From Acidobacteriota bacterium (GTDB lineage: Bacteria > Acidobacteriota > Terriglobia > Acidiferrales > UBA7541), in assembly GCA_003154775.1 (NCBI GenBank), contig PMES01000065.1, forward strand, positions 9,195 to 55,945: DNA of 46,751 bases, read 5' to 3'. The notes below the pieces were generated by a model that worked only from the letters and a program-made list of their open reading frames with translations, ran no database searches and was not told the DNA's origin. Of this stretch, positions 10,442 to 44,006 are shown in pieces. Positions within the stretch are counted from its first letter, which is position 1, and every line of letters starts with the position of its first letter. The position numbers were made by a program, and so were the translations under genes.

Positions 10442-11722
10442 TTAGACCGCCTCCGCGGTCTTGCGTGGGTATCTGGTGGAGACGTAGTTGTCCACCAGCT
10501 TCTGGAACGCCGCGGCCAGTTCGTCGTAGGTGCCTTCGAGCGTCACATCCTTGTGCCCATCAATATATACCGGGCAGCGCGGTGCCTCCCCCGTCCCGGG
10601 CAGGCTGATGCCGATATTCGCGGCCTTCGATTCGCCGGGGCCATTCACGATGCAGCCCATCACCGCCAGTGTCATCGTCTCCACGCCGTCATACTGCGTC
10701 TTCCACACCGGCATCATGTCGCGGATGTACCCCTGAACGCTTTCCGCCAATTCCTGAAATGTCGTGCTGGTGGTGCGCCCGCAGCCCGGGCAAGCCGTCA
10801 CGCTCGGCGCAAACGATCGCATCCCCAGCGCCTGCAGCAGCTCGCAGCACGCGTACACTTCCTCGCGCCGATCCCCGCCCGGCCGCGGCGTCAACGAAAT
10901 GCGAATCGTATCCCCAATGCCTTCGTACAGCAGCACGCCCAGCGACGCTGCCGACCACACCAGGCCCTTCATGCCCATGCCCGCTTCCGTCAAGCCCAGG
11001 TGCAGCGGCTGCTGCGTCTTTGCGGAAAGATCGCGGTACACGGTGATGAGGTCGCGCGGCCGCGAAGTCTTGCACGAAATGATGATCTGGTCGCTGCGCA
11101 AGCCGCATTCCAGCGCCAGTTCCGTGGACTCCAGCGCGGAGAGCACCATGCAATCGTTGATAATCTCTTCGCTCTCCTTGCCCAGGTTCTTGTCCGTGTT
11201 TTCCTGCATCTTGCGCATCACCAGTTCCTGGTTCAGGGAGCCGCCATTCACGCCGATGCGCACCGGCTTGCCGTGGTCCACCGCCACCTTGCAGATGGTG
11301 GCAAACTGCTCGTCGCGCCGCTGTCCCGCGCCGACGTTGCCGGGATTGATGCGGTACTTGTCCAGCGCCGCCGCGCAGTCCGGATACTTGATCAGCAGCA
11401 CGTGGCCGTTGTAATGGAAGTCGCCGATGATGGGCACGTTGCACCCGGCGTCCAGCAGGCGCTTCTTGATCTCCGGCACCGCCGCCGCCGCTTCCGGCAC
11501 GTTCACCGTCCACCGAACCAGCTCGCTGCCCGCTTCGGCCAGCTCCAGGGTCTGTTGCAGCGTCGTTTTCACGTCCGCCGTGTCCGTGTTGGTCATGGAC
11601 TGCACCACGATGGGCGCGCCGCCGCCCACCATGATGTGGCCCACCTTCACGCCATAGGTTTTCCTGCGCGCATGCCGCAGCGCATTGGCATCAAATCCCG
11701 AAATCTGGTTCAACATATCCAT
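10442..11722 (-). CDS. ispG: 4-hydroxy-3-methylbut-2-en-1-yl diphosphate synthase
   Basis: IspG (GcpE) carries out the penultimate step of the MEP isoprenoid pathway, reducing MEcPP to HMBPP with a 4Fe-4S cluster. The cluster ligands are visible as C311 and C314 (ACPGCGR), C357 (MGCIVNGPG) and E364. The 426 residues and the segment [17 protein letters not shown] match the bacterial two-domain form without the long plant-type insertion. The gene heads a minus-strand run ispG-gatC-gatA-dinB with short gaps and lies downstream of the toxin-antitoxin remnant. Confidence 0.98.
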
Positions 11723-11891
11723 CTATTTTACCAGCCCGCCCGCATTTGTGTCCTGTCACACCGGCACCGTTGCGGCGACCACCTTCAGGTGGCTATCCGT
11801 GCGGCCTTTCCCGCTGGAAACAGTGAGGTGAAAACTCTTTGCCATAATTGACTTTCGTGTTGCATCGGCGCCAGCGGAAGTTTGAAACGAC

Positions 11892-12172
11892 TTATCTTTT
11901 GGGGCGTCGTGCGAAATCCTCGAAAGCTTTAAGGACGTCCTCGCGGTTGCTGATCCTGGCCACAGGAACCGGTTCCGCATCCAGGAACACCACGACATTG
12001 GCGCCCCCTGCCCGGCAACGGATGGGAATACCGCGCCTTGCACGCCCTTGGTCATTAGATATTCTCCAACTTCCTGAGAGAAGCGCAGGCCCGAAGGATC
12101 GAGCGCGGCCGCCAGCGCACGGCCTAACTCCGAATCGGGATCAATAGACCTAAAATCGGCGGAAAGACTCAC
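11892..12172 (-). pseudogene. RES-domain toxin remnant (C-terminal part, frameshifted)
   Basis: A GTG overlaps the antitoxin stop as GTGA, so translation would be coupled. The frame reads well to PSVAGQGA (about 11995), then the sense continues one frame over as NVVVFLDAEPVPVARISNRE and ends with TAA at 11892. The span of 281 bases is one short of a multiple of three, consistent with one lost base. The product would be about 93 residues and resembles only the C-terminal half of RES toxins (PSxxGxGxNVVVF); the N-terminal half with the NAD-binding Arg and Tyr is absent. RES toxins degrade NAD+. If the original frame is kept instead, a 138-residue product of low plausibility runs to 11756. The RES assignment is moderate. 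Confidence 0.6.
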
Positions 12173-12882
12173 AAAGGCTCACCGCTTTGCATCCGGCGAA
12201 ATTCCAGGATCAGGTCGCGCGTTTTCCCCTCGCGAATCATCTGGCGGGGCGTCTGCCCCCGGAATGCCTCGTTGGGGCTATCCATCCAGGCGGCGAGCTG
12301 GCCGTTTCCGACATAGGCCGAGAGCAGAGCGCGAAGCTCCAGCAGGTCCCGCAACCGGCGTCCCGGCACCGCCTGGCGGCGCTCCCAGTTTTGCACCGTT
12401 CGTGGGGTGACATCCATAGAAGTCGCCATGTCTGTCTGCGTCAGATTCAGTTCCTTCCGAAGCAGCGCAACGGATTCCGAGGAGTCCAGGTGCACCATCG
12501 TCTCCAGCATCGCCTGGCTCTTGCCCTGCGTGGCGCGCAGGCGCAATCTTTCCCCGACTTCGTCGGAGTTAAAACAGATGTGAGTGCGTTTGGGGCGGAG
12601 CTGCCCGACAATCTTTCCAAGTTCCGCCGCCCGGGGCCCGTCCGAATGCAGAGAATAGATCACGACATTCAGGTTTTTCTTCCTGGAGATCTGCCTGAGG
12701 CAAGTCCTTACCGTGCTCGAAGGTTCGTGCCCCTTCAAATACACCAAAACCATCTGATCCTTGCCCAAGGATTTCGCGGAGGAAAGCATCGAGCGGGCGT
12801 GCGGACGGCCGCCTAGATTGGACACGAACTGTACGGCTTCATCCCGGGTTTCGGACTGGGCACAAACAATGACTTCGGACAT
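12169..12882 (-). CDS. Xre-family antitoxin with toxin-binding domain and extra N-terminal domain
   Basis: A 237-residue protein in three parts. The first ~110 residues (SEVIVCAQSETRDEAVQFV onward) form an alpha/beta region I do not recognise. A helix-turn-helix follows (LRKELNLTQTDMATSMDVTPRTVQNWERR). The C-terminus (LLELRALLSAYVGNGQLAAWMDSPNEAFRGQTP) matches the Xre/MbcA/ParS toxin-binding domain. Such antitoxins neutralise RES toxins and repress their own promoter. ATG 12882 is preferred because GAGGA sits eight bases upstream and the predicted transcript start is near 12901; ATG 12897 would be almost leaderless. The RES partner downstream is degenerate, so this may be an orphan antitoxin. 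Xre antitoxins are usually shorter, about 130-160 residues. Confidence 0.85.
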   Translation of the reverse strand: MSEVIVCAQSETRDEAVQFVSNLGGRPHARSMLSSAKSLGKDQMVLVYLKGHEPSSTVRTCLRQISRKKNLNVVIYSLHSDGPRAAELGKIVGQLRPKRTHICFNSDEVGERLRLRATQGKSQAMLETMVHLDSSESVALLRKELNLTQTDMATSMDVTPRTVQNWERRQAVPGRRLRDLLELRALLSAYVGNGQLAAWMDSPNEAFRGQTPRQMIREGKTRDLILEFRRMQSGEPL

Positions 12883-12907
12883 AAGAGGGGTCCTCATATT
12901 CCTGGAT

Positions 12908-12936
12908 CAGGATACACGAAATATTTCGTGTCGTCA
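12908..12936 (-). promoter_or_regulatory. Promoter of the Xre/RES module
   Basis: Read on the minus strand, TTGACG (12936-12931) and TATCCT (12913-12908) are separated by exactly 17 bases. The spacer is filled by a palindromic operator. The predicted start of transcription is near 12901. Confidence 0.75.
12914..12931. promoter_or_regulatory. Operator O1, perfect 18-bp palindrome
   Basis: ACACGAAATATTTCGTGT is a perfect inverted repeat lying between -35 and -10 of the antitoxin promoter. It is the probable binding site for autorepression by the Xre protein. Confidence 0.8.
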
Positions 12937-12954
12937 ACACGCAAATATTCGTGT
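12937..12954. promoter_or_regulatory. Operator O2, imperfect copy of O1
   Basis: ACACGCAAATATTCGTGT matches O1 at the ACACG and CGTGT arms and pairs with itself at 7 of 9 positions. It sits upstream of the -35 box, 23 bases centre to centre from O1, so two dimers could bind nearly in phase. Confidence 0.7.
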
Positions 12955-12965
12955 ATATTTACGAG

Positions 12966-12987
12966 GTACTAGTTCCGAAACCAGTAC
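12966..12987. repeat. GTAC-armed palindrome, copy 1
   Basis: A 22-bp near-palindrome with GTAC arms and a GTTCCGAAAC centre. It lies 29 bases upstream of the -35 box of the Xre/RES promoter. Related copies are at 38445-38466 and 44010-44031. Confidence 0.75.
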
Positions 12988-13164
12988 GAGGAGGGGCAGC
13001 CGGCAACAGTGAAGGGGAGGTAGGGAGAAGTACCATCTACCTGGGAGGAGAAAGGTCAAGACCGGCCCTCCAGAAAACGGTGGGCGCAAAAGGCGCACTC
13101 CTTTACGAACCAAGGTTGCCGCACCCAAAGTCGTTCCAAAGCTCACCCTGTCGGGCACCTGCCG
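12985..13164. repeat. Conserved block attached to palindrome copy 1
   Basis: Bases 12985-13021 (ACGAGGAGGGGCAGCCGGCA and onward) and 13146-13164 (CCCTGTCGGGCACCTGCCG) have counterparts at 38464-38500 and 38515-38532, where the middle ~125 bases are missing. Read on the minus strand, both also give similar peptides (RQVPDRVSFGTT... and LVLVSELVP here; RRVPNGFRFASS... and LVPVSKLVP there). It may be a structured RNA, a coding remnant or boundary DNA; I cannot decide. The rest of 13165-13384 shows nothing I can name. Confidence 0.55.
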
Positions 13165-13384
13165 TTTTGGTTCATAGTTTTGTTTGGTATGAAAAATGCG
13201 AGACTGTGTTAAGCCGACTCCAGAAACCGCGAGCTGCTTCAAGTTCTAGCTCTATCATGACGCGACTTTCCTCTCGCTCCAATCGCACTCAAATCGCTCC
13301 GATCTCTGCATACTATGCAACGTGAATTGAGGCACGGCCTTGTTCTGGTGATTGCAGCAGCTAATCAGAACGTCGGTGTGGCAA

Positions 13385-13498
13385 CTAAGACCGTCCTGCT
13401 GGTCCTCTTCCCCGCCTCGCCTTGGAATCGGTACGGCGGGGCAGTCGATTACTTCCGAGCATTTTCTTGTACTTTTGCGGGATTTTCTTTTTCTTCAT
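13385..13498 (-). CDS. Tiny Lys/Arg-rich protein, 37 aa (tentative)
   Basis: A short frame beginning MKKKKIPQKYKKMLGSNR and ending in TAG at 13385. GGAGGAAGG lies 10-18 bases upstream of the ATG. About 40% of residues are Lys or Arg, as in small nucleic-acid- or ribosome-associated proteins. No family is recognised. It could be chance, but the ribosome-binding site and strong composition argue for listing it. Confidence 0.35.
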   Translation of the reverse strand: MKKKKIPQKYKKMLGSNRLPRRTDSKARRGRGPAGRS

Positions 13499-13597
13499 CT
13501 GGAGACTCCTTCCTCCATATCCCTATCGACCCGATGAGTAGCAAATCAAAGCTCCCGGCCAGCACAGCCAGGGGAGAATCACAGCACCGCGGCAAAA

Positions 13598-13879
13598 TCA
13601 ACGAAGCCCGAGTTGTAGATGCGCAACAATCGCGAATCCACCTGAAAGAGGCGCGCGAGCCTTTCGAAATATGTCGGAGGGGCATTTCGGTTGACGATGG
13701 TCAGACTCCGTATCCACGTTTCCGCGCACCGCAAACACCGGCGCGATCGCCTTCAACTGCATCAGCACTTCGGGTTTCCCCACATCGCCCGCATGCACGA
13801 TCAGGTCTACTCCGCTCAGCGCCCGCGCCGCTTCCGGCCGCAGCAGCCCGTGTGTATCGGAGATAATTCCCAGCCTCAT
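13598..13879 (-). pseudogene. Broken YfcE/MJ0936-type metallophosphoesterase
   Basis: The N-terminal ~62 residues from ATG 13879 are a good calcineurin-like phosphoesterase start: MRLGIISDTHG (metal-binding Asp and His), VDLIVHAGD and AVRGNVDTE. The family is normally about 160-180 residues with C-terminal GHxH motifs, but this frame loses similarity after RGNVDTE and ends at 93 residues. A neighbouring minus frame over 13570-13700 reads more naturally (NRNAPPTYFERLARLFQVDS), as if another gene's 3' end had been joined on. It starts eight bases after the preceding gene's stop, so it was probably operonic. Confidence 0.65.
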
Positions 13880-30693: not shown

Positions 30694-30934
30694 TGCCCCA
30701 CAACAAACCGCGGCAAACCCCGAACAAAACCGTCATTCCGAACGGGGTCCGCGAAGCGCGGGTTTTGCGCCCCGTATGCTTCATCGGGGTGAGGAATCTC
30801 TCTTCTCTTCCTATCCTGAAGCTATGACGTTTTTCGTGACTGCGGCGCGGAACCCTTCTCTATCGAGTGCTGCTTACGCGATGAATCCGCTTTTCGCGGC
30901 GGTCTCTGCTCTTGCGATTATGGCGTGAATTTTC

Positions 30935-31309
30935 TTACTTGATCCCAACCAGCTCGATCAGCCGCTTCACTTCCTCGTGGGGAACATCATACAGCGGCCG
31001 CTCATCTTCCTCTTCCAGCCGCTCGTTGAGAAATTCCGCGGCCACAAAACTGGCCTCGCGGTCGCTCAGGTCGCGCCCGGCTTTCGCGCGGAATTCCACA
31101 AACGCGGTGTGCGCCAGTCCCACGATGCGCCCTTCTCCATCCACCACAAATTTCGCGTCAATGGTGTCGCTGTGGCGCGTGGCAATGGCGTTCCAGATAT
31201 GCGAAAAGCTGCAGTGATACACATGGCCGCTCAAGGTCGAGGTCACTTCAAATGCGCCGATGAACTCGTTCATGGCGCCGTTGTTGGCAAGCACCGGTAC
31301 GCTGGGCAC
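30935..31309 (-). CDS. Hypothetical cytosolic protein, 124 aa
   Basis: GTG 31309 is chosen because AGAGGAG lies five bases upstream. The product starts MPSVPVLANNGAMNEFIGAF, contains a compact alpha/beta core (HIWNAIATRHSDTIDAKFVV) and ends acidic (ERLEEEDERPLYDVPHEEV). No signal peptide or known motif is visible. It is isolated between two copies of a hairpin repeat. Confidence 0.65.
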   Translation of the reverse strand: MPSVPVLANNGAMNEFIGAFEVTSTLSGHVYHCSFSHIWNAIATRHSDTIDAKFVVDGEGRIVGLAHTAFVEFRAKAGRDLSDREASFVAAEFLNERLEEEDERPLYDVPHEEVKRLIELVGIK

Positions 31310-31390
31310 GTTCGCTCCTCTTTCCGCTTCTTCCGCGCGCACAACAAGTGTTCAACACCCCTCCCCAACTGTCAATCCCGCCGCAATCTT

Positions 31391-31426
31391 GGAGTGCGCC
31401 GGCTTGCCGCCGCTTTTACAGCTGCA
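31391..31426. repeat. GCGGCGGC hairpin repeat, copy 2
   Basis: Same orientation as copy 1 at 30658-30693, differing at GCGCCGG and CAGCTGCA. Confidence 0.75.
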
Positions 31427-31588
31427 ACCCGGCCGGCAAACCATAATTCGACTCCTGCCCCCGTCTCCGCTCATTCTCCTCTTGGGTTCCTCTTATGAAC
31501 TCACCGAACCGACTTGCGGAATCGGCCTGCCCTCTCGTCGACCCATTTCCCTGCCCATTCGCTTTCCAAAGGTGATATAGCTTTCCCC

Positions 31589-32673
31589 ATGGAACCCAAT
31601 CCGAAGTCCCATCCCGCGGTCACCGCGGTCGGCATTGTGGCCATCCTTTTTGGCGCGCTTGGTGCGCTCGGCGCCATCTTCGTGGAAGGCTCATTGCTCT
31701 TTGTATCTCGTATCGCCCCTACAGATAAGGGCGTTCCCTTCCCCGGAGCCGCGCGGGCCATGGCCAGTGTGACCTGGCTGTTCCTCTTCCTTGTCGCCAT
31801 CTTTGGCATTCTTGTCGGCGTGGGCATTCTTCGCCGGCGCAATTGGGCTCGCATCTCCATTCTCATTTGGGGCGGGCTGATGACTTGTTTGTCCGCCATC
31901 GCCATGGTGGCCACGTTCTTCGTCATGAATAATTTGCCCCCCACGCTGCCCAACGCCGCCGATACCGCTCGGGTCATGGTGCTAATGAAGTGGTTTATGG
32001 CTCTCTTTTACGGGATTCCTTTTGGCGTGGGCATCTGGTGGCTCATTCTCTTCACCCGCCAGGCAGTGGTGGACGACTTTAATCCGTTCCTTGCGCGCCT
32101 CCATCCCGGGAAAACGCTGGACGCCTCCGGCTTCCCGCAAGAGCCGCCACCGCCTCCTTCGTACGTTCCTGGCGGCCCGGTTTGCCCCTTGCCACTGCTC
32201 ATCATCGCCGGCTTTGACATCTTTTCCGGCGTTTTCATGCTGACGCTTCTCATCGTCCCATATTCGTTCATCTCCTCGGTTCCCCTCTTCCTTTTTGGCC
32301 ACGCGTTTCATGGGGGGGTTCCCTGCTGTTCTTCGTTCTGCTGGGAGTCGTCTACGTGGTCTGCGGTGTCGGTATCATCAAACTGAAGCCATGGGCGCTG
32401 GATCCTCTGATCTGGTGCAAAGCGCTGTTCTTCCTCAGTGGGATTGTGACGCTCTTGAATCCGCAATTCGTGCCCACGATGAAAGAAGCCATCGCCAAAA
32501 TGATGCCGGCGAATCTCCCATTGCCTCCGAACGCTTTTTTCTTTTCGGATTCCTACCTCAAATCGATGACTGCCTTCGGTTTCCTCTTCAGCGGAGTTTT
32601 GCTGGCCATACTGATTGTCTATCGCAAGCGGTATCTGGAAGCGGCGCGCGCAAAAAATCCCGCGGCGGGCTGA
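31589..32673 (+). pseudogene. Multi-pass membrane protein interrupted in a G7 run
   Basis: From ATG 31589 the frame encodes about four membrane helices (for example TAVGIVAILFGALGALGAIF) and a Pro-rich cytosolic loop. At GGGGGGG (32312-32318) the frame becomes nonsense, while the frame beginning TCC at 32320 continues as a hydrophobic helix (SLLFFVLLGVVYVVCGVGII) to the stop at 32673. Eight G would restore a ~361-residue protein. This may be assembly error, decay, or slippage-based phase variation. Function is unknown. Confidence 0.75.
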
Positions 32674-32730
32674 AGCTCAGCCTGGCAACCCCGAAAAAAT
32701 TGTGAGCGTCCCGGCGAACCGGCGCGGCGT

Positions 32731-33939
32731 TTAGCGCGCGGCGAGTGCGGGTACTTCGGCGTGCGTGTAATAGCGCACGGCGGCGCCAACCCCGGCGCCC
32801 GGCTCGTGCCGGTGGCCCTGATCCACCAGGGCCTTGTCCAACGCGCCCAGCAATTCCAACACGAATTGCTTCTGGCTGCAGTAGCCCATCAGCCCCAGCC
32901 GCCAAATCTGTCCCTTTGTTGCGCCAATGCCGCCGGCGATTTCGATGTTGAACTCTTCGAGGAGCTCATTGCGCACCTTGAGATCGTCAATGCCCGCGGG
33001 AATCTTGACCGCAGTGACGGTGGGCAGGCGGTCCGCCGGGTTCTCCACAAAAGGCTTCAGACCCATCGCTTCCACGCCCGCGATTAGCGCGAGTTGATTC
33101 TGGCGGTGGCGTTCCCACCGCACCTCCAAGCCTTCCTCAATCACCATGCGCATTGCTTCGCGCAGCGCGTAAATCAGCGAAATTGGAGGCGTGTGGTGGT
33201 ACAGGCGATCCTTGCCCCAGTAATTCATCGCCGTGGAAAGATCGAAGTACCAGCTCTGCACCTTCGTCTTGCGCGTGCGGAAAACTTCTTCGGCGCGCGG
33301 GCTCACCGTGATGGGAGACATTCCCGGAGGCGCGCTCAACGCTTTCTGCGACCCGCTGAAGCAAATGTCCACGCGCTGCTTATCAATATTCAGGGGCACC
33401 CCAGCCAGGGTAGCCACCGCGTCCACCACCAGCAGCGCGCCGCATTCATCGGCGACCTGCCGGAAGGGATCGATGTTGGTGACCACGCCCGAAGAGGTTT
33501 CCCCCTGCGCCAGGCCAATCATCTTGATCTTGCGGCCCTTGGCGACCTTGCGCACGTCTTCCGGGTCAACCGGCCTGCCGTAGGGCGCTTCGACAAGGTG
33601 CAGCGTCGCGGGTGTGTGCTGCGCAATGACGTGCATGCGTTGCGAGAACAGGCCATTCACGCAGCAAATCGCTTCATCGCCGGATTCCAGCGAATTCAGC
33701 ACCGAGGCTTCAATCCCGCCCGACCCGGAGGCGGACAGCGGGAACGTAATGCGGTTTTCTGTCTGGAAAATCTGCCGCAGCAACACCTGGGTTTCATCCA
33801 TGCAGCCGCGGAACCACGGGTCCAGATGCCCCACCAGCGGCGTGGCCAGGGCCCGGTATACGCGTGCGTCCATCGAAGACGGCCCGGGCGTCATCATCAA
33901 ACGTGCGGGAGGCCTGAGTTCACCAATCGGATTGCTCAT
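32731..33939 (-). CDS. Class V aminotransferase (serine/alanine-glyoxylate type)
   Basis: A 402-residue PLP-dependent enzyme. The Schiff-base lysine is K199 (FSGSQKALSAPPG) and the Asp that contacts the pyridine nitrogen is D173 (VVDAVATLAG). MTPGPSSMDARV near the start and the C-terminal GGIGATKGQIWRLGLMGY are typical of the alanine/serine-glyoxylate aminotransferase group. It likely transfers an amino group from serine or alanine to glyoxylate; the sequence alone does not fix the donor. AAAGGAG precedes the ATG. Confidence 0.92.
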   Translation of the reverse strand: MSNPIGELRPPARLMMTPGPSSMDARVYRALATPLVGHLDPWFRGCMDETQVLLRQIFQTENRITFPLSASGSGGIEASVLNSLESGDEAICCVNGLFSQRMHVIAQHTPATLHLVEAPYGRPVDPEDVRKVAKGRKIKMIGLAQGETSSGVVTNIDPFRQVADECGALLVVDAVATLAGVPLNIDKQRVDICFSGSQKALSAPPGMSPITVSPRAEEVFRTRKTKVQSWYFDLSTAMNYWGKDRLYHHTPPISLIYALREAMRMVIEEGLEVRWERHRQNQLALIAGVEAMGLKPFVENPADRLPTVTAVKIPAGIDDLKVRNELLEEFNIEIAGGIGATKGQIWRLGLMGYCSQKQFVLELLGALDKALVDQGHRHEPGAGVGAAVRYYTHAEVPALAAR

Positions 33940-34126
33940 GAGAGTGCTCCTTTACGGATCCTTATGAACCCACAAGGATGGCCCGCGGGTTCGTACTTCG
34001 GGGAGTTGCTGGAGTACGGCGGGAACTCCAGTGTCCCGCAGGAGCAAGCCCAGCGCAACGGTCAATTTGGATGGCTTGGTAGCGGCGTCCTCCTCGCCGT
34101 CCTCCCGCCTTTCTCTTGCCGTTGTA

Positions 34127-34149
34127 GGGGCGCAGGACTCCTGCGCCCC
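34127..34149. repeat. GGGGCGCAG palindromic repeat, copy 3
   Basis: GGGGCGCAGGA and TCCTGCGCCCC around a single base; a perfect 11-bp inverted repeat within the gene-free stretch 33940-34386. Confidence 0.8.
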
Positions 34150-34201
34150 ATGTCCGCACAATCACCTGATCTTGCCTCCGCGGCCCGCCATTCTCATCGC
34201 C

Positions 34202-34282
34202 GTCATCCCAAGCGGAGCGACCCGATTTCCTTCCTCGCGCCGCAGTTTGGCGCGTCGGGTCGCGAAGCCGAGGGATCCCTCT
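34202..34282. repeat. GTCATCCC-GGATCCCTC dispersed repeat, copy 1
   Basis: An ~81-base element beginning GTCATCCCAAGCGGAGCGAC and ending GAGGGATCCCTC, with inner inverted arms GCGACCCGA/TCGGGTCGC. Close copies are at 36120-36200 and, inverted, 44497-44573. Repeats of the kind GTCATCC...GGATC are common between genes in many bacteria. Nothing else is seen in 33940-34386. Confidence 0.75.
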
Positions 34283-34386
34283 TCCTGCCTAGGGAGGGCA
34301 TGGCTCTTTACCCCGAACAACGCGAAGGGCAGCCATGCCGTAACTGTCGCCTCTTCAATGCGGTCTTACCTGCTGAGGGCCGCGTC

Positions 34387-34965
34387 CTAATTTGCCGCCA
34401 CGCCTTTGGCCGGGGCTGCTTTCTCGCCCCCCGGCGGCGCGATCTGCTCGAGTCTTGCTCGCAGCCGCGCGACCTCCTTGCCTTCCTGCAACAATTCCTC
34501 CTGCTCGAATCGGCGTTTCGCCCGCGCCTCTTCCTCCTCGGACTGCCCGCTCGGGTCTTTCAGGAACGCTTGTTCGTCGAGGACAAACATGCGCATCAGA
34601 AGTTGAATCTTCAGTTGCTTCTCTTTGATCTGCTGTTCCAGCGCCGCAATTTCCGCCTTCCTCTCCTCCGGATTCTGCGGAGCTTCGGGAGATGCCTTCG
34701 TTGCAGGCTCCGCGGCTGTCTCCGCCTTGGGAGTTTCCGCTGGGTTGGCGGTCGGCTGCGGCGCCAGTAACGCGATATCGTCATCGGTGAGGGCGGGAGT
34801 CTTTTTTACCGGCGTTCCGTGAACTTCGCCAGCTATTGAGGATGGTTGGACATCCGGCGGCTTGTTCTTGCTCTGCGCCCGGCAAACGCCAGGCATGCTC
34901 ACAGCTCCAAGCAAAATCGTCGTGAAGACGCGGAGAGAGAGGGCCATGGGGAAGCTCCGTCGCAA
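34387..34965 (-). CDS. Secreted coiled-coil hypothetical protein, 192 aa
   Basis: A signal peptide (SLRVFTTILLGAVSMPGVCRA) is followed by a Pro/Ala-rich linker (about 35-95) and a charged coiled coil (EERKAEIAALEQQIKEKQLK, then EEEARAKRRFEQEELLQEGK). No catalytic motif is visible. A structural envelope role is possible but is inference. Confidence 0.75.
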   Translation of the reverse strand: MRRSFPMALSLRVFTTILLGAVSMPGVCRAQSKNKPPDVQPSSIAGEVHGTPVKKTPALTDDDIALLAPQPTANPAETPKAETAAEPATKASPEAPQNPEERKAEIAALEQQIKEKQLKIQLLMRMFVLDEQAFLKDPSGQSEEEEARAKRRFEQEELLQEGKEVARLRARLEQIAPPGGEKAAPAKGVAAN

Positions 34966-35161
34966 AGTGGGCCTTTGCGTTTAGGCTACTCCTCCCCTCC
35001 GCCGCGTCAAGGTTCAAACTCCGGTACTAGCCGCGTGGCCGCCAAGTTGACGGTTTGCAACGACTTAAGTCGCCGTGCTCTTGCGCTTTTCAAACCTGCG
35101 CTGCCCACGAACACACGATAAAATCGTGGTGAGCGGCTCTTTGTAGTTCTCTTCCCGCTGG

Positions 35162-35875
35162 TTAAAACGCGACAGTGACCGCGATCCCGATGCCAGGATG
35201 CATGCGGTCATATAAGTAGTACCCATCGCCGGTGTAATCAAGATACACGTCGTCGTTTTCGTACCACGCGGGATCCCACGATTCTGGCCACGGGTCCATG
35301 AACGTAACCCAATAGCCGTCGTACTGGAAACGCGGATAGCCGCCTACGAAAACCATCGGAAGGCCGCCGATGCGGAAGAAGTGATTACTCCCGAAGTAGA
35401 GCCGGAAGCGGTCTTCAGGGACTCGGTAGCCGTTATAGCCGCCGCGTTGCTGCCAGGTGCGGTGGTCGTTGTTCCATGAACCGGCGCGAGACTGCGCGAA
35501 ACCGCTGCGTACCTGCCCTGCGTGTTGTGGCACGCCGCTGTGGTGGACTCCGCCATTCGTGGGGCCGTTGGCCTTGACGCCGCCATGATAAGCGCCGCCG
35601 TAGGTTTGTTGCGGTCGTGGCGCAGGTTTATTGGCCGTCTGCTGATGCTGTTGCTGAGCGGGTTTCGCCTGCTGATGTTGTTGCTGTGCGGGTTTCGCCT
35701 GCTCCTTTTGCGGCTGCTGATGCTGCTGCTGAGCGGGTTTCGCCTGCTGATGCTGTTGCTCCTGTTGCGGTTTGCCCTGCTCTTTCTCCTGTTGCTTGCT
35801 CTGTGCGTAGGCAGGAGCAATGGCTCCCACCAGAAGGAGAAGAACTCCCTTGGTGATAAGTCCAACTGCTTTCAT
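35162..35875 (-). CDS. Secreted Gln-rich repeat protein, 237 aa
   Basis: From ATG 35875 (GGAGG nine bases upstream) the protein has a signal peptide (MKAVGLITKGVLLLLVGAIA), then a Gln-rich tract with repeats of KPAQQQHQQ over about residues 38-80, a Gly/His-rich part, and a conserved C-terminal aromatic domain (FGSNHFFRIGGLPMVFVGGY to GYYLYDRMHPGIGIAV). The last part resembles RcnB- or YXWGXW-like periplasmic domains. The frame is open far upstream but that extension is not coding. Confidence 0.8.
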   Translation of the reverse strand: MKAVGLITKGVLLLLVGAIAPAYAQSKQQEKEQGKPQQEQQHQQAKPAQQQHQQPQKEQAKPAQQQHQQAKPAQQQHQQTANKPAPRPQQTYGGAYHGGVKANGPTNGGVHHSGVPQHAGQVRSGFAQSRAGSWNNDHRTWQQRGGYNGYRVPEDRFRLYFGSNHFFRIGGLPMVFVGGYPRFQYDGYWVTFMDPWPESWDPAWYENDDVYLDYTGDGYYLYDRMHPGIGIAVTVAF

Positions 35876-36119
35876 GAGTATTGCCTCCGTTACCGTGATT
35901 TCCTGCGCCCCTCGCTCGGCGCGTGGGGCGCACCTGTTGTTTCGGGTGGTTGATTCCGTGAAACATGTCAGCGTAACAAATCTATCCACAAGTGGACTGT
36001 ACAAAAAGGGACAGATGTCTGATAGCCGTGCTTGCCGGGCGCCGCACCCGTGGCAGAAACATATGCTTTCGGAGCAGTTCAGCACTACGCCTTGCCGCGC
36101 CCGGCCCTTTCTTCCTTTT
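35876..36119. other. Gene-free stretch before the bactofilin gene
   Basis: No ORF or RNA gene is supported in 35876-36382. CGCCTTGCCGCGCCCG occurs twice with one change (about 36089 and 36239) around the dispersed repeat at 36120-36200. Confidence 0.5.
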
Positions 36120-36200
36120 GTCATCCCGAGCGGAGCGACCCGATTTTGTCCCTCGCGCCGCAATTTGGCGCGTCGGGTCGCGTAGTCGAGGGATCCCTCT
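36120..36200. repeat. GTCATCCC-GGATCCCTC dispersed repeat, copy 2
   Basis: Same orientation and about 88% similar to copy 1 at 34202-34282, including the inner GCGACCCGA/TCGGGTCGC arms. Confidence 0.75.
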
Positions 36201-36382
36201 GTTCTTGGCGGGCGTGATTTCTTGCCCACGCACTTCGCGCCTTGCCGCGCCCGCCCCACGGGAGTAGGATGCAGGGCACCCCTCAATCTTGCGTGGAGTC
36301 TCTGCAGGCAGGAGCAAGGAATCGGGATTGTTGCACTCCTTCGGGAAATCCGCATGGGGTGTGGTGTCCCAAGGAGGATCAC

Positions 36383-36859
36383 ATGTGGAATGAGAAGAAA
36401 CCGGAAACGAAGAGCACGGACGCGCCGCATCCAGTGGAGGCGCCAGCGGAACGCGCGACGGGGTGGCTGGGGGCGAGCCTGCGCGTGAAAGGCGAAATCT
36501 CCGGCACCGAGGATTTGCTGATCGACGGCATGGTTGAAGGATCGATCCACCTTGATGAGCGGAAATTGACGGTCGGAAAGACCGCGAAGCTCACCGCTGA
36601 CATCAACGCCCGCGACGTCGTCGTGTACGGCTACGTCAAGGGGAACGTGCGCGCGAAGGGACGCGTCGAGATCAAGAAGGACGGTTACGTGATCGGGAAT
36701 TTGACCACCGCACAGATCATGATCGAAGACGGCGCGGACTTCAAAGGCACCATCGAAATTGACCGCAGCGCGCCCAAGGAAGCCGACAAGAACGTCCCCG
36801 CCCGTGCCGCCGCGGCCGCAGCAGGCGCCGGCGCAGGCGCGACGCCGAAAAGCATCTGA
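36383..36859 (+). CDS. Bactofilin (polymer-forming cytoskeletal protein)
   Basis: A 158-residue bactofilin. The central beta-helix domain spans about residues 30-125 (ASLRVKGEISGTEDLLIDGM, VYGYVKGNVRAKGRVEIKKD). Flanking tails are disordered and Ala/Gly/Pro-rich, as usual. Bactofilins polymerise into membrane-linked filaments that organise cell shape or envelope machinery. AAGGAGG six bases before ATG 36383 fixes the start. No peptidoglycan hydrolase is adjacent here; the M23 gene lies 19 kb away. Confidence 0.93.
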   Translation: MWNEKKPETKSTDAPHPVEAPAERATGWLGASLRVKGEISGTEDLLIDGMVEGSIHLDERKLTVGKTAKLTADINARDVVVYGYVKGNVRAKGRVEIKKDGYVIGNLTTAQIMIEDGADFKGTIEIDRSAPKEADKNVPARAAAAAAGAGAGATPKSI

Positions 36860-36995
36860 CGATCCTGCATGGCAGGCCCTGGCGGCTGGCCTTGTTCCTC
36901 CTTCGTCATCCCGAGCATCGCGATCGGAGACGCCATTTCGGTGGCGTCGGAGATTCCGACTCCTGTCGGAAGGGATCTCCCTTTCTCTTTAGGGG

Positions 36996-37015
36996 GTCGG
37001 AGCTTCAGCTCCGAC
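36996..37015. repeat. GTCGGAGCT palindrome (REP-like), copy 1
   Basis: GTCGGAGCT and AGCTCCGAC around TC. It matches the element next to the RAYT transposase remnant (43940-43959) in inverted orientation, including the CCCCCTAA flank. Confidence 0.75.
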
Positions 37016-37063
37016 ATACAGGCACCCCAAAAACAGAAATTCTCTATCCCGCCCGCCGCCCTT

Positions 37064-37669: not shown

Positions 37670-37854
37670 GGGTTCACTGCCCTTCACCTGAATTCTTTCG
37701 ACGCATCATACGTCCCGGCTCTTGGCCCCGCAAGGCGCGCCGCTCTTGCGTCTGGTGGCACAGTCACTCCTGACTGCGCTCTTGCCTTTCTTCTCCCGGT
37801 CTGTCGGTTGATCCGCTGCACGTGTAACTTTTGTGTCGCGTACAAGAACGGGAA
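37670..37854. other. Start of gene-free repeat region 37670-38537
   Basis: About 870 bases without a supported gene lie between the secreted protein and res. They hold the repeats listed next; the short frames here are chance readings across the repeats. Confidence 0.55.
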
Positions 37855-37870
37855 TGTCGGCGCGCCGACA
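37855..37870. repeat. TGTCGGCGCGCCGACA palindrome, copy 1
   Basis: A perfect 16-bp palindrome in AAT-flanked context, repeated exactly at 38117-38132. Confidence 0.8.
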
Positions 37871-37899
37871 ATTTCACTTGACTGCCTAGTTAACATGAA

Positions 37900-37990
37900 C
37901 CCCCCCCCCTGTTTTTGCGTATGTACGGGAATAATTGGACTTACGGGCGACCTGCGCGTATGTACGGGAATGATTGGGGTTAGTGGCGAG
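37900..37990. repeat. C-tract plus double GTATGTACGGGAAT repeat, block A
   Basis: Ten C residues, then TGTTTTTGCGTATGTACGGG, then two similar ~40-base units (GCGTATGTACGGGAATAATTGG and its near copy), ending near GGCGA. Block B at 38237-38326 and inverted block C at 44269-44352 share this layout. Confidence 0.7.
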
Positions 37991-38116
37991 TGACGGGAGA
38001 ACTCCTTCGACTCGCACTGCTCGCTCAGGATGGGCATCCTTCACCGGATGCCCAGTTGTCAGTTTTAGGTTTAAGAGAATACGGAAGAGAGAGAGAGCCG
38101 GTGCAGGGGTCAAAAA

Positions 38117-38132
38117 TGTCGGCGCGCCGACA
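38117..38132. repeat. TGTCGGCGCGCCGACA palindrome, copy 2
   Basis: Identical to the palindrome at 37855-37870, 262 bases away. Confidence 0.8.
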
Positions 38133-38236
38133 ATGTTAATTGATGTTGTAGTAAACGCAGGCGTTAGAATAGCGCGATTATAGTCCACTTGCTTTGCTTC
38201 CTGTACTTCGTTTGGTTCCTTTACTTCCTTCGGATA

Positions 38237-38326
38237 CCCCCCACCCCCCTGTTTTTGCGTAAGTAGGGGAAACAAAGGGGTTACAGGCGATTTTCTTGGA
38301 TGTAGGGGAAACAAAGGGGTTAGCGG
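38237..38326. repeat. C-tract plus double GGGGAAACAAAGGGGTTA repeat, block B
   Basis: CCCCCCACCCCCCTGTTTTT, then GCGTAAGTAGGGGAAACAAA and a second ATGTAGGGGAAACAAAGGGG unit about 40 bases on. Same layout and orientation as block A. Confidence 0.7.
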
Positions 38327-38401
38327 GATTTGCGGCGCGGATGAGGATGTGCGGGGTATCGAAATGGCACAAGAGCAGCGTCCCCTCAGCATAACAGGCG
38401 A

Positions 38402-38430
38402 AGCATAGCACATTATTTACCACTTGTCAA
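38402..38430 (-). promoter_or_regulatory. Strong promoter pointing left out of the R-M island
   Basis: On the minus strand TTGACA (38430-38425), a 17-base spacer and TATGCT (38407-38402). It lies 14 bases downstream of palindrome copy 2. No gene is recognised below it. Confidence 0.65.
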
Positions 38431-38444
38431 TTATTATTTATAGG

Positions 38445-38466
38445 GTACTAGTTTCGAAACTGGTAC
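38445..38466. repeat. GTAC-armed palindrome, copy 2
   Basis: GTAC arms around the perfect 12-bp core AGTTTCGAAACT. Next to it, 38464-38500 and 38515-38532 match the block following copy 1; this block ends within six bases of the res stop codon. Confidence 0.8.
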
Positions 38467-38537
38467 GAGGATGTGTAGCCGGTAACGGTGAAGGGAGCTT
38501 GATGCAAACCTAAACCCGTTGGGCACCCGCCGATGGG

Positions 38538-41234
38538 TTACGATTGGTCGCTTCCCTTGTATTCCTTAAATCCGTCGAGTAGCTGTCCAAATGAAGCTGG
38601 CTTGTATCTTTCAAAGCTCTCCTGGTCCACATAAACGAAATCGTATTTGACCACAGCCTGTACTCGATTGATGTCTTCGCACCACTGACGCAGCCTCTCC
38701 ATTTTTAGCGGCACGTCCAAATCTTCCAGTCCCTTGGTTTCGACGACAACAATCCGCCTGCCGCCCAGCTTGACCAGAAAATCCGGATAGTAGTTCGAGA
38801 TGTCGCCGTTCGCATTTACATAGTCCAGCTTAAAATGCACAGCGAAATAATTCTTCGCGTAGGACACCACATCGTCACAGCTCTCTAAGAACTGCGCGAA
38901 CAACAACTCAAAATGGCTGTCGCCGAGGATTCGGTTGAACACGCTCTTTTTCGGAACGAGATAGCCCTGTTCCTTGGCAACAAAGGGCCGAGTTTGCCGG
39001 AGCTTGATAGTGTCGCGAATTTCGGCGTCGCCCTTTTGCCGCACGGTGAGAGCGTTGATCCCCCTCTTGAACGTTTCTAGCAGAGTTTTAGTGGCTGCCG
39101 GTTCCGAGAGATTACGAAGCGTGTTGGGGTCCTCAAGTTGCACCGGGCGGTCAAACAAATCGGCTTGCACAAAGGACTTCACTTTGCCGTACAGCACATC
39201 GTAGCCACTCACCAGCCTCAAGTCCTTCATCATGGTCTGCGCGAAGTAGCCGATCACACTGCGGTAATCGGCAATTCCTGCCGTGTCGAGAATTGTCGTG
39301 TGCGTAATCTCACCCGTAGTGATGTCCTTGAAGACGATCTCCCGCTGCTGCTCTTCACTGAATTGCAGGTAAGCCACACGCTGATGCCCTAAAGCGGTCA
39401 CGTCCAGGTCGGCCAGATTCTTGTATTCGCGATAGACCCGCGGCGTCAGCAGCGGGATCTCGATATCCAAGGCCTCGATGTCTTTCTTGTCGTTTTCCTT
39501 ATCGATCTCCACTACCAGCGGAGTTTTTGGCTGCGTTCCTTCGCCCATCGGCTTGCGTTCCAGCACCACCCCTTCCGCCTGAATGGAATCCACGAAATCC
39601 ATGAACGCATCCGTGCCGACCACGCTGACGTACTCTTCTCCACCTCTGGGATACATTGTACGCAAACCGCGCCCCAAAGTTTGCTCGGGCAGGATGTTGC
39701 TCTTCGACGAATAAGCGCGCAAACCCACAATGGTGGTGACATTGCGCACGTCCCAGCCTTCCTTCAGCACCATAACGGAAATAATGGCTTTAAAGGGACT
39801 CTCCCACCCATCAATTGCGTTGGCTTGCTTGCGCAATTTATCCAGTTCTTCCTTGCCCTTGCCAGACGTTGATTCGGATATTTCGCCGTTGCTCTTCGTA
39901 TGAATCACCAGAACGGCGTCTTTTAAATCGGGATAGTTGCCCTCCAAATACACTGCCACATCGTCGCAATTGCGCGTGTCATCGGTCATCACGAACAGAA
40001 TGGCCTTCTTACCTAGCTTTTCATGTTCGGCGTAAGCCTTGCGCCACTCGATCACCCCCAGGTGTATGTAATCCTCATATTTTTCCGTGAACTTCGCGCT
40101 CTGGCGCTCCACTAGCTTGGCGCGGCTGGCCGCATCGGGCAGCACGGGATGTTTCACCACATTTTGCGAAATGGCTTCCACCAGCGGGTAATCCGCTACG
40201 GTCTGCACAAAAATCGCGCCATTGTCGTGCTTGGGAGTGGCGGTAACATCCACCTGCAAGGAAAGCTCGGCGCCTTTCTGTTTCAGGCGGTTGTGGATGT
40301 CCTCAATGGATTTGAACCAGGCCATGTTGGGATCGTGGATGTGGTGCGCTTCGTCGTTCAAAACCATCAGTTCGTCAATGTCGCGCACGATCATCCCCAG
40401 GTCCACCTTGGAGTCCGTGGTCGCGCCGCTGGGCCGCTTCCCCAGGAAATAGTCCATGGTGTCTTCGTCGTCCGGCGAAGCGGGAATGTCGTCGCCGGCG
40501 TACACGCGGTGAATGTTGGTCAGAAAAATGTTGCCCGTTGGCTGCGTGATGCGCACCTGATCTTGCACATGCAACGTTAGCTGAAAATCTTCGCGCCAGT
40601 TGCGCCCATCCACGCCGTCATCGGGCAAGACGGGGTCGTCTTTCAGGAAAATCCGCAAACCCTGAAAATCCTTATAGATGCGATCCAATACGATGATGTT
40701 GGGGGCGATCACCAGGAAATTGCGCGACAGCCCGGACTCTGCTTCGTACAGCTTGTGAAAGAAACTCCAAGCCAAGACCAAACTCAATACCTTTGTCTTA
40801 CCCGTACCCGTGGCCATTTTCACCACAAACCGCCGCCACGTCTCGTCAAACATCCCTGCGGACACCGCCCCGGAACTATCAAAGCGCATCAGGTCAAATT
40901 TGTCCTTCACCTCGACCACGTCATAGAGGTAGATGATGGTTTCCAGGGCCTCGCGTTGCGCGAAGTAATACTGAAACTCGGCCATCGTGCCGTCTGCCTT
41001 GGGCATCAGGTGGGGCGTCCTAAACCACCAGTTCAGCAGGCTCTTGCTGGTATCCGTCGCTCCGGCATAGCCGATGTCCCGCCATTCCTTCACCTTTTTG
41101 CGGAGTTCGGGAACCAGCGGCGGCATCAGCTTGTCCGAAGTAGACTCCCTCAAGGCTTCATCCGCAGGGAACCAGCGCACCGCGGGATCGAGGATAGCGA
41201 AGGGCGATTCGGGGAAGTTGGGATGGATGGCCAT
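38538..41234 (-). CDS. res: Type III restriction enzyme Res subunit (helicase-nuclease)
   Basis: An 898-residue Res subunit. It translocates or diffuses on DNA after ATP binding and cuts when two unmethylated sites are head to head. Superfamily 2 helicase motifs are present: Walker A ATGTGKT (141-147), DEAH (294-297), VTATPK and QTLGRGLR. The C-terminal nuclease has PD (817-818) and ExK (E832, K834) in the order of a PD-(D/E)xK fold. ATG 41234 shares one base with the mod stop (TAATG), so translation is coupled. The frame is open 53 codons further into mod, which is not a plausible start. No disruption is seen. Confidence 0.95.
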   Translation of the reverse strand: MAIHPNFPESPFAILDPAVRWFPADEALRESTSDKLMPPLVPELRKKVKEWRDIGYAGATDTSKSLLNWWFRTPHLMPKADGTMAEFQYYFAQREALETIIYLYDVVEVKDKFDLMRFDSSGAVSAGMFDETWRRFVVKMATGTGKTKVLSLVLAWSFFHKLYEAESGLSRNFLVIAPNIIVLDRIYKDFQGLRIFLKDDPVLPDDGVDGRNWREDFQLTLHVQDQVRITQPTGNIFLTNIHRVYAGDDIPASPDDEDTMDYFLGKRPSGATTDSKVDLGMIVRDIDELMVLNDEAHHIHDPNMAWFKSIEDIHNRLKQKGAELSLQVDVTATPKHDNGAIFVQTVADYPLVEAISQNVVKHPVLPDAASRAKLVERQSAKFTEKYEDYIHLGVIEWRKAYAEHEKLGKKAILFVMTDDTRNCDDVAVYLEGNYPDLKDAVLVIHTKSNGEISESTSGKGKEELDKLRKQANAIDGWESPFKAIISVMVLKEGWDVRNVTTIVGLRAYSSKSNILPEQTLGRGLRTMYPRGGEEYVSVVGTDAFMDFVDSIQAEGVVLERKPMGEGTQPKTPLVVEIDKENDKKDIEALDIEIPLLTPRVYREYKNLADLDVTALGHQRVAYLQFSEEQQREIVFKDITTGEITHTTILDTAGIADYRSVIGYFAQTMMKDLRLVSGYDVLYGKVKSFVQADLFDRPVQLEDPNTLRNLSEPAATKTLLETFKRGINALTVRQKGDAEIRDTIKLRQTRPFVAKEQGYLVPKKSVFNRILGDSHFELLFAQFLESCDDVVSYAKNYFAVHFKLDYVNANGDISNYYPDFLVKLGGRRIVVVETKGLEDLDVPLKMERLRQWCEDINRVQAVVKYDFVYVDQESFERYKPASFGQLLDGFKEYKGSDQS

Positions 41235-43543
41235 TATTTCTTGCCTCCCACGGCCACCTCGACAATCGTCATGGTGTCGTTGCCGAAGATATCCACCACC
41301 TTGACGGCCAGCTTGCGGCGGCCCGGTGTGCATTCGTGATAGACGCTCGTCAGTTCCAGCGAACGGTCTTTCTTGGTGCGAAAGGACTGCCACTCGTTCT
41401 CGAAGATGTAATCGCCCGTCCAGACTTCCTCGTATTCATCGAGGCGCATCTGCGGGGGCTCAAGCCCGGCGATGGAGGCTTGTCCGGGCGGCAATTTCTG
41501 GACGCGAATGATTTCGCGCTTGTTCTCGAAATTGAAATCCACGGCCCAATAGTCTATCCAGTCGGTCCATTTCTTGGTGAGGCGTTCGCGGGTAACGATG
41601 CCGTTTTTGTCCTTGCTGACCTTCACGATCTGGCCCTTTTCGGCCACGATCTTGCTGGATTTCTCTTTCAGAGAGGCTTCGGCGGCGGCAATGGAATCCT
41701 GGGAATAGAAGACGGAGAAGTCGGTTAGCTCGACGGCCACGCTGTTTTTCTTGACGTGCGGCTTGACCTCGATTGCCGCGACATCATGAAAGACCACCTG
41801 GTTTTTCTCGACCGCGCGCTTGTCGAATACCTCGGCGGGGATGTACTTGGGGGCGATGTCAATGCCTTTGGCGCGCGCCTCGTCCAGCACGTTGGGGAAG
41901 AGGCCCATCTCGAACTCAAAGCCGAGGATGTCCACGCGGGTGATGTGCTTCTGGCGGCATTCCAGGATGATTTCTTCGACGTAGAGGCGCGTCACGGGGA
42001 GATTGACCGGCCCGACCGACACGAGCCGCCCGGCCTTTTTGCCTTGGAAGGTCTTGAAGCCGTCGGTCTTTTCGGCGCGATAGGCGCGCAGGATTAAGTC
42101 GAGGAATTCGGCTTCCTTTTGCTCGAGCTGCTTTTGCTGTTCTGCTTCGCGTAAGTTTGGGTTCACGCCGATGTAGTGCTGACGTTCGTATTTGCCGAGG
42201 TTGAGGATTTCAAAGGCGCGGTAGTCCTTGCCCTCAGCTTTCAACTCCCGCTGCACGCCGATCAGCCGCTTGCGTGTGGTGTGGATAGCGAACTTGCCGA
42301 GGTCGCTGACGATCCATTTGCGGCCTAGCTTTTCAGCGGCCGCAGCGGTGGTACCCGAGCCGCCGAAGAAATCGGCTACGAGGTCGGCTTCATTAGATGA
42401 CGCTTTAATGATGCGCTCAAGCAGGGCTTCAGGTTTTTGGGTAGGGTAGTCGACGCGCTCGTCCGCCACAGGATTGACGGCGGGAATATCTGTCCAAAGA
42501 TCTTGAAGTTTGATTCCCTCCATCTCCTCCAAATACTGTTTGTACTGGATTCTGCCAGTCTTTTCTTTGGGGAAAATCAGACGGCCCTGTTTGTCCAATT
42601 CTTCCATCTTTGCGCGGGTCCATTTGTAACCATTGGAATGCGGTAGGAATCCCTTGTATTCGTAATAGAGATTAGGCCGAACGCCCGGGTTGCCCGTTGG
42701 TATCGGAATGTACATTCGGCCATCTTCATCCTTCCGGGCTCTCTGAAGATACTTTTCCTCATACGCGTGATACTGCATATTGAACGTGTATTTCGCCGTT
42801 CTTGCGTACCAGTAGACCGTATCGTGCAAGACTCCACACTGCTTGCTCGATAGCCCGGTTGACGTCGAGCGCTTCCAGATTATTTCATTGATGAACAAGT
42901 CTTTTCCAAACACCTCATCCAAAACCAAGCGAAAAAACGCGCTTACCCGCCAATCGCAATGCACATAGATACTCCCGTCCTCGGCTAGCAAGTCCCGCAT
43001 CAGCACCAGCCGTTCGTAGATCATGGCAATGAAGGAATCCGCGCCCTGGCCCCAAGTGTCGCGGTAGGCGATTTCTTCTAGGATGTTGGGCTTCTTCGTG
43101 AACGTGTCGCCGCCGATCTCGATGTCCATGCTGAAATCGGCGCCAACGTCAAAGGGAGGGTCAATGTAGATGAGCTTGATGCCGCCCTGCTTCTCGATTT
43201 CCTCGCGGAGCGGGCCGTTCTTTAGCGAGGAGAGAATCAGCTTGTTGTCGCCCCAGATAAGCTTGTTGGTCCAGCCCTTGAGCTGGCGTCCGCGTGCGTC
43301 CGTGGCGAACATCTCGGTTTGCAGCGCGGTCTCTTCGGGTTTCTCGGCGCGCGGCTCGTCCACCTGCTCGATCACCTGAAAAGGCAGGACCACATTGCAG
43401 ACTTCATTGGTTTTGCCATTCCAGACGAGTTCGACTTCGCGCTTGTCCTCGAAGAGGAGAAAGCGGTACTTGTCCGGCAGGGGTTTGTCGGCCTCCAGGA
43501 AGCGGATGATTTCCTGTTTTTCTTGTTCCGTTATTTGCGCCAT
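41234..43543 (-). CDS. mod: Type III DNA methyltransferase Mod subunit
   Basis: A 769-residue N6-adenine methyltransferase that also gives the system its site specificity. Motif IV is DPPF (128-131) and motif I is FFGGSGTT (392-399), the beta-class order. The region between them (about 200-350) is the target-recognition domain. The C-terminal ~320 residues extend beyond the methylase core. AGAGGAT precedes the ATG. Its stop overlaps the res start by one base. Mod alone can methylate; Mod2Res forms the restriction complex. No simple-repeat tract suggesting phase variation is visible in the gene. Confidence 0.95.
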   Translation of the reverse strand: MAQITEQEKQEIIRFLEADKPLPDKYRFLLFEDKREVELVWNGKTNEVCNVVLPFQVIEQVDEPRAEKPEETALQTEMFATDARGRQLKGWTNKLIWGDNKLILSSLKNGPLREEIEKQGGIKLIYIDPPFDVGADFSMDIEIGGDTFTKKPNILEEIAYRDTWGQGADSFIAMIYERLVLMRDLLAEDGSIYVHCDWRVSAFFRLVLDEVFGKDLFINEIIWKRSTSTGLSSKQCGVLHDTVYWYARTAKYTFNMQYHAYEEKYLQRARKDEDGRMYIPIPTGNPGVRPNLYYEYKGFLPHSNGYKWTRAKMEELDKQGRLIFPKEKTGRIQYKQYLEEMEGIKLQDLWTDIPAVNPVADERVDYPTQKPEALLERIIKASSNEADLVADFFGGSGTTAAAAEKLGRKWIVSDLGKFAIHTTRKRLIGVQRELKAEGKDYRAFEILNLGKYERQHYIGVNPNLREAEQQKQLEQKEAEFLDLILRAYRAEKTDGFKTFQGKKAGRLVSVGPVNLPVTRLYVEEIILECRQKHITRVDILGFEFEMGLFPNVLDEARAKGIDIAPKYIPAEVFDKRAVEKNQVVFHDVAAIEVKPHVKKNSVAVELTDFSVFYSQDSIAAAEASLKEKSSKIVAEKGQIVKVSKDKNGIVTRERLTKKWTDWIDYWAVDFNFENKREIIRVQKLPPGQASIAGLEPPQMRLDEYEEVWTGDYIFENEWQSFRTKKDRSLELTSVYHECTPGRRKLAVKVVDIFGNDTMTIVEVAVGGKK

Positions 43544-43968: not shown

Positions 43969-44006
43969 GAAACTGCGCCGACCCCTAGCAGAAACTGCGC
44001 CGACCC
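43969..44006. repeat. Tandem GAAACTGCGCCGACCC repeat
   Basis: GAAACTGCGCCGACCC occurs at 43969-43984 and 43991-44006, period 22, directly before palindrome copy 3. Confidence 0.8.

Follow-up and report, generated by a model that had tools for sequence, protein, structure and literature searches.

A polarized, composite non-coding end element at the borders of lineage-specific, often anti-phage islands in an Acidobacteriota genome

How defence genes enter, leave and relocate without a travelling recombinase is an open question. We describe a composite non-coding end element of 0.3-0.7 kb, of which a repeated block flagged in a 46,751-nt stretch of an Acidobacteriota draft genome (hereafter the window) is the inner module. 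Its modules keep their order and orientation; its promoter is constrained; its cargo is biased in this genome towards anti-phage systems; and, by sequence comparison, that cargo differs or has been relocated in a sister species (G211). Our best explanation, held with slightly better than even confidence, is that the ends are recombination-prone borders of exchangeable, often anti-phage, lineage-specific islands, and we infer a causal role of the ends in that exchange.

The two blocks named by the sequence-only reading (12985-13021 with 13146-13164, and 38464-38500 with 38515-38532) are both present, and they sit just inside two copies of the composite element. They are indeed close counterparts: 28 of 37 positions are identical between 12985-13021 and 38464-38500, and the stretches beyond both palindromes reach a best local alignment score of 19, which none of 1000 resampled sequences equalled (mean 8, maximum 15). 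The distinction between a long and a short form also stands, the roughly 125 extra bases of the long form (13022-13145) carrying another dispersed repeat with five other sites at E < 0.01 in a genome search (query 89-198); by eye, the same repeat is also seen beside the end at L081:10337. In all sequence retrieved for the analysis the exact block (AGCCGG-AAC-GTGAAGG) has only these two copies; what the wider family has in common is the adjoining palindrome and promoter, and other inner modules, not the exact block. A pairwise genome search with the first block found other copies, the 38.4 kb copy not being among the matches listed; the core profile, built from the family with these two window copies included, detects 12954-12994 at E = 2.7e-8 and 38402-38471 at E = 2.1e-21.

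Outward from the cargo, the element runs through an inner module, CCTCGTACCAGTTTCGAAACTAGTACC (which includes the 22-bp near-palindrome), some 14 AT-rich bases, a -35 hexamer, 17 bases and a -10 hexamer, and then through a leader of one of two kinds (lead1 or lead2), a pair of direct repeats spaced about 38 nt, AAAAACA or a similar motif, and a G tract; the inner module is variable and often contains a hairpin, and many lead1 ends additionally carry a REP-like palindrome, TGTCGGCGCGCCGACA. At the left end of a type III restriction island in the window, these parts are the short-form inner module (38467-38535, minus strand); the near-palindrome (38445-38466), centred at about -60 from the expected transcription start as counted on the alignment; a predicted outward sigma70-type promoter (38402-38430, minus strand; -35 TTGACA at 38425-38430, 17 nt, -10 TATGCT at 38402-38407); a rep module with two direct repeats and a AAAAACAGGGGGGTGGGGGG tract (38236-38323, minus strand); and a REP-like module with TGTCGGCGCGCCGACA (38102-38180, minus strand; second copy at 37846-37896), with a second rep module at 37900-37982. 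A third window copy (44004-44073), in the opposite orientation, forms the right end (44003-44073, plus strand), with a palindrome at 44010-44031, TTGACA at 44045-44050, TACGAT at 44068-44073 and the promoter again outward; a lead2-type leader and a rep module with a G tract follow (44073-44350, plus strand). The type III restriction genes (38538-43543), namely a restriction subunit (38538-41393, minus strand; Pfam ResIII, PADLOC REase_III) and a modification methyltransferase (41234-43543, minus strand; N6_N4_Mtase), are thus bracketed by inverted copies of the element. The right end is also accompanied by a tandem pair of units of about 136 bp each (44588-44851), and an inverted 29-nt REP (TGTCGGAGCT..AGCTCCGAC) flanks the island on both sides (36989-37017 and 43938-43966), its right copy standing after what we read as the end of a RAYT-like gene.

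The core alignment comprises 32 of the 34 cores (L097 and the copy at 12954, both without the promoter part, were omitted). In it the -10 hexamer is TANNNT in 32 of 32 copies with variable middle positions, and the -35 hexamer is TTGACA in 19, TAGACA in 11 and something else in 2. Since TANNNT is fixed while its middle varies, the hexamer is conserved in the manner of a promoter and not of a fixed sequence. Each full end probably has an outward promoter, directed away from the cargo and through the direct repeats and the G tract. The near-palindrome is centred about 60 bases ahead of the expected transcription start, which is a usual position for an activator. Of 64 copies, 43 have a G tract on the RNA-like strand within 420 nt past the -10 and 6 have a C tract there. 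The G tract begins 152-202 nt past the -10 in 38 of these 43 copies, and most tracts consist of two G runs, not four. We disfavour an ordinary promoter of the next gene, as the downstream gene has the same direction at 15 of 34 ends, the opposite direction at 16 and is lacking at 3, by counts from a heuristic gene caller of our own. Two further observations concern the palindromes: at G211 L148 (3700-3990) the palindrome is interrupted by some 100 bp of inserted DNA that has inverted ends (GCCGTTCCAAC) and is flanked on either side by ACTAGT, and the TGTCGGCGCGCCGACA palindrome module occurs at nine places within about 5 kb of contig C78 of this genome (L103, 2815-8004).

A conserved promoter followed by conserved sequence suggests a transcript, and the block had been proposed to be a structured RNA; we consider a structured non-coding RNA very improbable. 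Paired positions in the palindrome do change, as had been noticed, but the changes are not compensatory: over 11 pairs in 32 copies, two cells are altered on both sides compared to 1.6 in shuffles; 29 of 32 copies have a mismatch at the fifth pair; and 157 of 500 shuffles reach the observed paired percentage and 433 of 500 the covariation score. The palindrome, moreover, lies upstream of the promoter; RNAalifold returns 0 consensus pairs in the core alignment and 3 in the rep-module alignment (2 of 39 rep modules omitted); and a scan of the window finds no Rfam family at its gathering score, a match to anti-hemB at 13409-13490 (23.6 bits, gathering score 49.5, E = 0.004) being taken as chance. 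A decayed coding sequence, the second proposal, finds no support either: for the 100 nt inside the palindrome, stop counts over 64 copies leave no frame open in more than 30 of the 64.

The remaining proposal, DNA ends of a transposable unit, is borne out in part. The ends are polarized and tend to pair in inverted, outward orientation, and their cargo differs or is relocated in the sister species. Neighbouring cores less than 6 kb apart, in this genome and G211 together, point outward in seven of nine cases, lie in tandem in two and point inward in none (four of four pairs point apart here; three are outward and two tandem in G211). Full-core pairs within 6 kb on one contig number only four in this genome, and many copies look solo. 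According to the profile, six islands (the window, L077, L079, L081, L086 and L093) have outward rep modules at both ends; two partial cases, L104, where a core faces a rep module, and L099, where one side has a leader fragment, bring the island count to eight. As for transposition itself, no target duplication was found (the outer edges are mosaic and undefined to the base), nor any clean empty site, nor a transposase family in the cargo scanned with Pfam; for the L093 island the sister species carries other DNA at that place.

These pairs bear on a reading of the element as a non-autonomous transposon, in which lead1 and lead2 would be left and right ends, the direct repeats transposase-binding sites, and a transposase encoded elsewhere would move the whole unit. 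The inverted ends with repeated sites fit it, as do the islands with one lead1 and one lead2 end (the window, L077, L086 and G211 L149), a repeat core that by eye looks homogeneous within species and different between species, and the fact that most ends at ten loci shared with G211 are not mutual best matches, as for repeated insertion. We nonetheless judge it unlikely: no autonomous copy was seen, no target duplication was found, L081 has two lead1 ends, and cargo can be common to loci without the inner module. It also overlaps our best explanation, as one possible agent of the exchange.

The cargo of the ends is rich in defence genes. PADLOC (E <= 0.001, with dedicated and generic hits separated by our own judgement) gives dedicated defence hits inside the ends for 16 of 30 proteins and 14 of 25 loci, these inner proteins having been chosen by us, the first 20 partly after a Pfam scan. 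The hits comprise type I, II, IIG and III restriction-modification, Lamassu LmuA and LmuB, Shedu, a ThsB-like TIR, Ppl, PDC-S06, PDC-S52, NsnA, and a PLD nuclease beside an Eco57I-type methylase. All eight paired islands have a dedicated hit, the weakest in kind being that of L081 (a PHP-domain protein called Ppl). The other 11 of the 25 scanned loci have generic hits only (L085, ABC ATPase; L095, kinase), a weak LmuB hit (L091, 2e-4) or no PADLOC hit (L078, L080, L083, L087, L090, L092, L096 and L098); L097, L100, L101, L106, L188-L190 and the locus at 12954 lay outside the scan. Among outer genes, one per locus, 0 of 20 have dedicated PADLOC hits and 5 of 20 have hits judged generic. Over the whole genome, two methyltransferase families (PF02384, 3 hits; PF01555, 7 hits) give ten hits, of which 8 fall in the 6 kb inside an end and none on the outside alone. 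These inside windows cover 4.2% of the genome; the binomial P of 4e-10 for 8 of 10 is too small, because the families were picked after they had been seen as cargo and two hits lie in one island. The other two hits (contigs C112 and C88) have no end in the surrounding retrieved stretch. In G211, 6 of 20 inner proteins have dedicated PADLOC hits at E <= 1e-5 (type II methylase, PD-Lambda-2 B and C, type II restriction enzyme, UG19 reverse transcriptase and HmaB/PglX-like methylase); L146 and L179 have generic or weak hits, and Pfam assigns PIN, HATPase_c_3, P63C, RHS, SEC-C and other domains to nine G211 proteins.

Comparison with the sister species, whose flanks are mostly 90-94% identical, indicates that cargo changes between stable flanks. 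Both flanks of the type III island of the window (30933-37033 and 44824-46751) are matched in one G211 contig (L143), and between them that contig has a type I system, not type III. Its hsdR rests on a 91% match to L089 (PADLOC REase_I), and we take the neighbouring genes, from their translations, to be hsdM, hsdS and a RAYT-like gene (11412-12176); in this genome the hsdR region and its adjoining core are on another contig (L089). Conserved flanks on both sides with unmatched cargo are found at four loci, i.e. window/L143, L082/L153, L091/L157 and L096/L156, the last three having no cargo match of at least 350 bp. Three pieces of cargo have been relocated between the species: the hsdR region (L089/L143, 91%), a DUF3443 gene (L081/L149, 92%) and a phosphoesterase gene (L090/L148, 84%). 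Shared cargo matches can end near gene ends, outside the end element. Of 37 ends, 16 are matched in G211 on the outer side alone, 2 on the inner side alone, 5 on both sides and 14 on neither, with little inner sequence available at L100 and L189 and little outer sequence at L101; most of the G211 stretches were retrieved because they bear the element.

Five loci were queried without being chosen for the element. The window island has a G211 end at the same place; the other four have none in the retrieved stretches, where L093 shows another 0.9 kb, L104 another 5 kb, L099 one unmatched flank and the locus at 12954 a hairpin module only. Because just one of these five has a sister end in place, we reduced our confidence in the best explanation from fairly good to slightly better than even. 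Where ends were compared part by part with G211, at ten shared loci, the end at the corresponding place ranked first for the outer part at one locus, for the palindrome part at three and for the inner part at three; ends, too, are therefore replaced or converted. End orthology at these loci was rejected for the same pattern of mostly non-best matches, and the suspicion, raised by eye, that a breakpoint falls within the promoter at the window/L143 end is unsupported by the match ranks.

These data also bear on whether the element is a passive marker, a mosaic BIME/REP-like intergenic repeat that amasses around horizontally acquired genes while exchange proceeds via recombination in flanking genes. 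Four of the five unselected loci without a sister end would fit such a repeat, as would the occurrence of inner-module hairpins and of the pal2 palindrome away from ends, the genes in or beside some islands that we read as RAYT-like (outside the Pfam-scanned set), and the presence of the element in other species without an evident defence link. Passive debris would not be expected, however, to be oriented outward in seven of nine pairs, to keep a conserved promoter with an operator-like site upstream, or to show outer-only synteny at 16 ends versus inner-only at 2; on balance we regard this account as possible but rather doubtful.

The solo end at 13 kb differs from the type III island in its surroundings. 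Its long-form inner module (12988-13164, minus strand) adjoins an operator-like near-palindrome GTACTAGTTCCGAAACCAGTAC (12966-12987, found by profile search), and in place of the usual promoter and leader this copy has the promoter region of an xre-type gene. The gene encodes 242 aa (12169-12897, minus strand) with HTH and Xre/MbcA/ParS C-terminal domains by Pfam and is antitoxin-like. It lies, together with a 138-aa partner without a Pfam hit (11756-12172) and the solo end, in a segment of about 2 kb (11742-13702) that has no G211 match at E <= 1e-12 and whose flanks are on different G211 contigs; from its sequence, the segment looks like an accessory toxin-antitoxin-like insertion. The accessory genes at this locus are on the promoter side of the end. 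A perfect palindrome, ACACGAAATATTTCGTGT (12914-12931), with a similar half site adjoining, overlaps the probable promoter from which the xre-type gene (start at 12897) would be transcribed and probably serves self-regulation of the toxin-antitoxin-like operon. In G211, a 174-aa open frame (minus strand of L204, 7328-7852) matches the window only as far as position 13703, where the accessory segment presumably cuts a phosphoesterase-like gene.

The element has at least 37 copies in this draft genome (4.63 Mb, 150 contigs) and 27 in the retrieved stretches of G211; the profile search of retrieved stretches gave 34 cores first and 37 once further stretches were added. The gcpE protein of the window has Acidobacteria, Terriglobia and Acidiferrales records as its closest hits in a collection search, in keeping with an acidobacterial source. 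At E <= 1e-4 the rep model has matches in 23 of the 250 genomes from the class, some of the weak matches possibly being chance: 17 are of the same genus (this one included), three of two other genera of the family and three of two other families. For 31 hits in other species, scored with our own weights and several of them from one locus, the best promoter within 400 nt before the repeats is stronger outward than inward in 25 (Wilcoxon P = 3e-5), so that promoter, repeats and G tract are common to the genus; TTCGAA lies within 60 nt ahead of the -35 in 8 of the 31. At three other-species loci, for which one inner gene each was considered, the genes encode a BshA-like glycosyltransferase at the first, a GH32 enzyme at the second and a product with no match at the third; the two informative genes belong to ordinary metabolism with no defence link, and the association with defence may be peculiar to this lineage. 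Searches of window positions 38230-38500 against plasmid and phage collections gave no match at E <= 1e-5, and viral contigs hold no exact match to the palindrome; on these searches we disfavour a known phage or plasmid element.

We propose that, in our best explanation, cargo would be swapped between loci at the end borders while the flanking genes stay. The likeliest agent would be homologous recombination between dispersed similar ends, which fits because the ends form a common family and the scanned cargo holds no recombinase: Pfam detects no transposase family and no tns gene in 30 cargo proteins of the islands of this genome. Transcription through the G tract possibly helps recombination between ends, and the main alternative agent would be a transposase acting in trans. 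A bolder extension, by analogy, is a programmed shuffling of anti-phage immunity, in which regulated outward transcription would open the DNA (as an R-loop or G4) and start homologous cassette exchange among loci with the same ends, involving whole defence cassettes at many loci where pilin variation involves one gene; we hold this to be decidedly unlikely. One short non-coding element borders many defence islands in one genome with its orientation kept, and it can be used for finding exchange events and for testing whether they are under regulation. Should the borders be what drives exchange, they would provide a bacterial route to reshuffle innate immunity.

Such an element is not described among the open PMC papers listed by literature searches, which is no proof of its absence from print; four known systems resemble it. 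Tn7-like transposons have at each end an array of roughly 20-bp repeats, the two arrays being in inverted orientation, and cargo rich in restriction-modification and other defence systems (PMC8649781); the islands here, about 3-6 kb where both ends are seen, share inverted repeat arrays and defence cargo with them, but have no tns gene in the scanned cargo, and their ends bear an operator-like palindrome, a G tract and putative promoters directed outward. Core defence hotspots of Pseudomonas keep conserved flanks around different defence systems in related genomes (PMC10250203), just as the window and L143 have type III and type I restriction-modification between conserved flanks; here, in contrast, one repeated non-coding border element is common to many loci. 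REP, BIME and REPIN elements with their RAYT transposases are mosaic, palindromic, intergenic and repeated (PMC2817692, PMC3116915), and the element resembles them in its mosaic palindromic intergenic repeats; pal2 and the hairpins are present, and genes that by our reading may be RAYT-like lie nearby. It differs in being a long polarized unit with a predicted promoter and G tract, directed outward from the cargo. Finally, pilin gene conversion at pilE of Neisseria gonorrhoeae needs small-RNA transcription at a G-rich tract (PMC3547852). The likeness to pilE is one of sequence, that is, a predicted promoter near a G tract on the RNA-like strand at a variable locus, in 43 of 64 copies; the element here mostly has two adjacent G runs and borders cargo that consists of whole gene systems.
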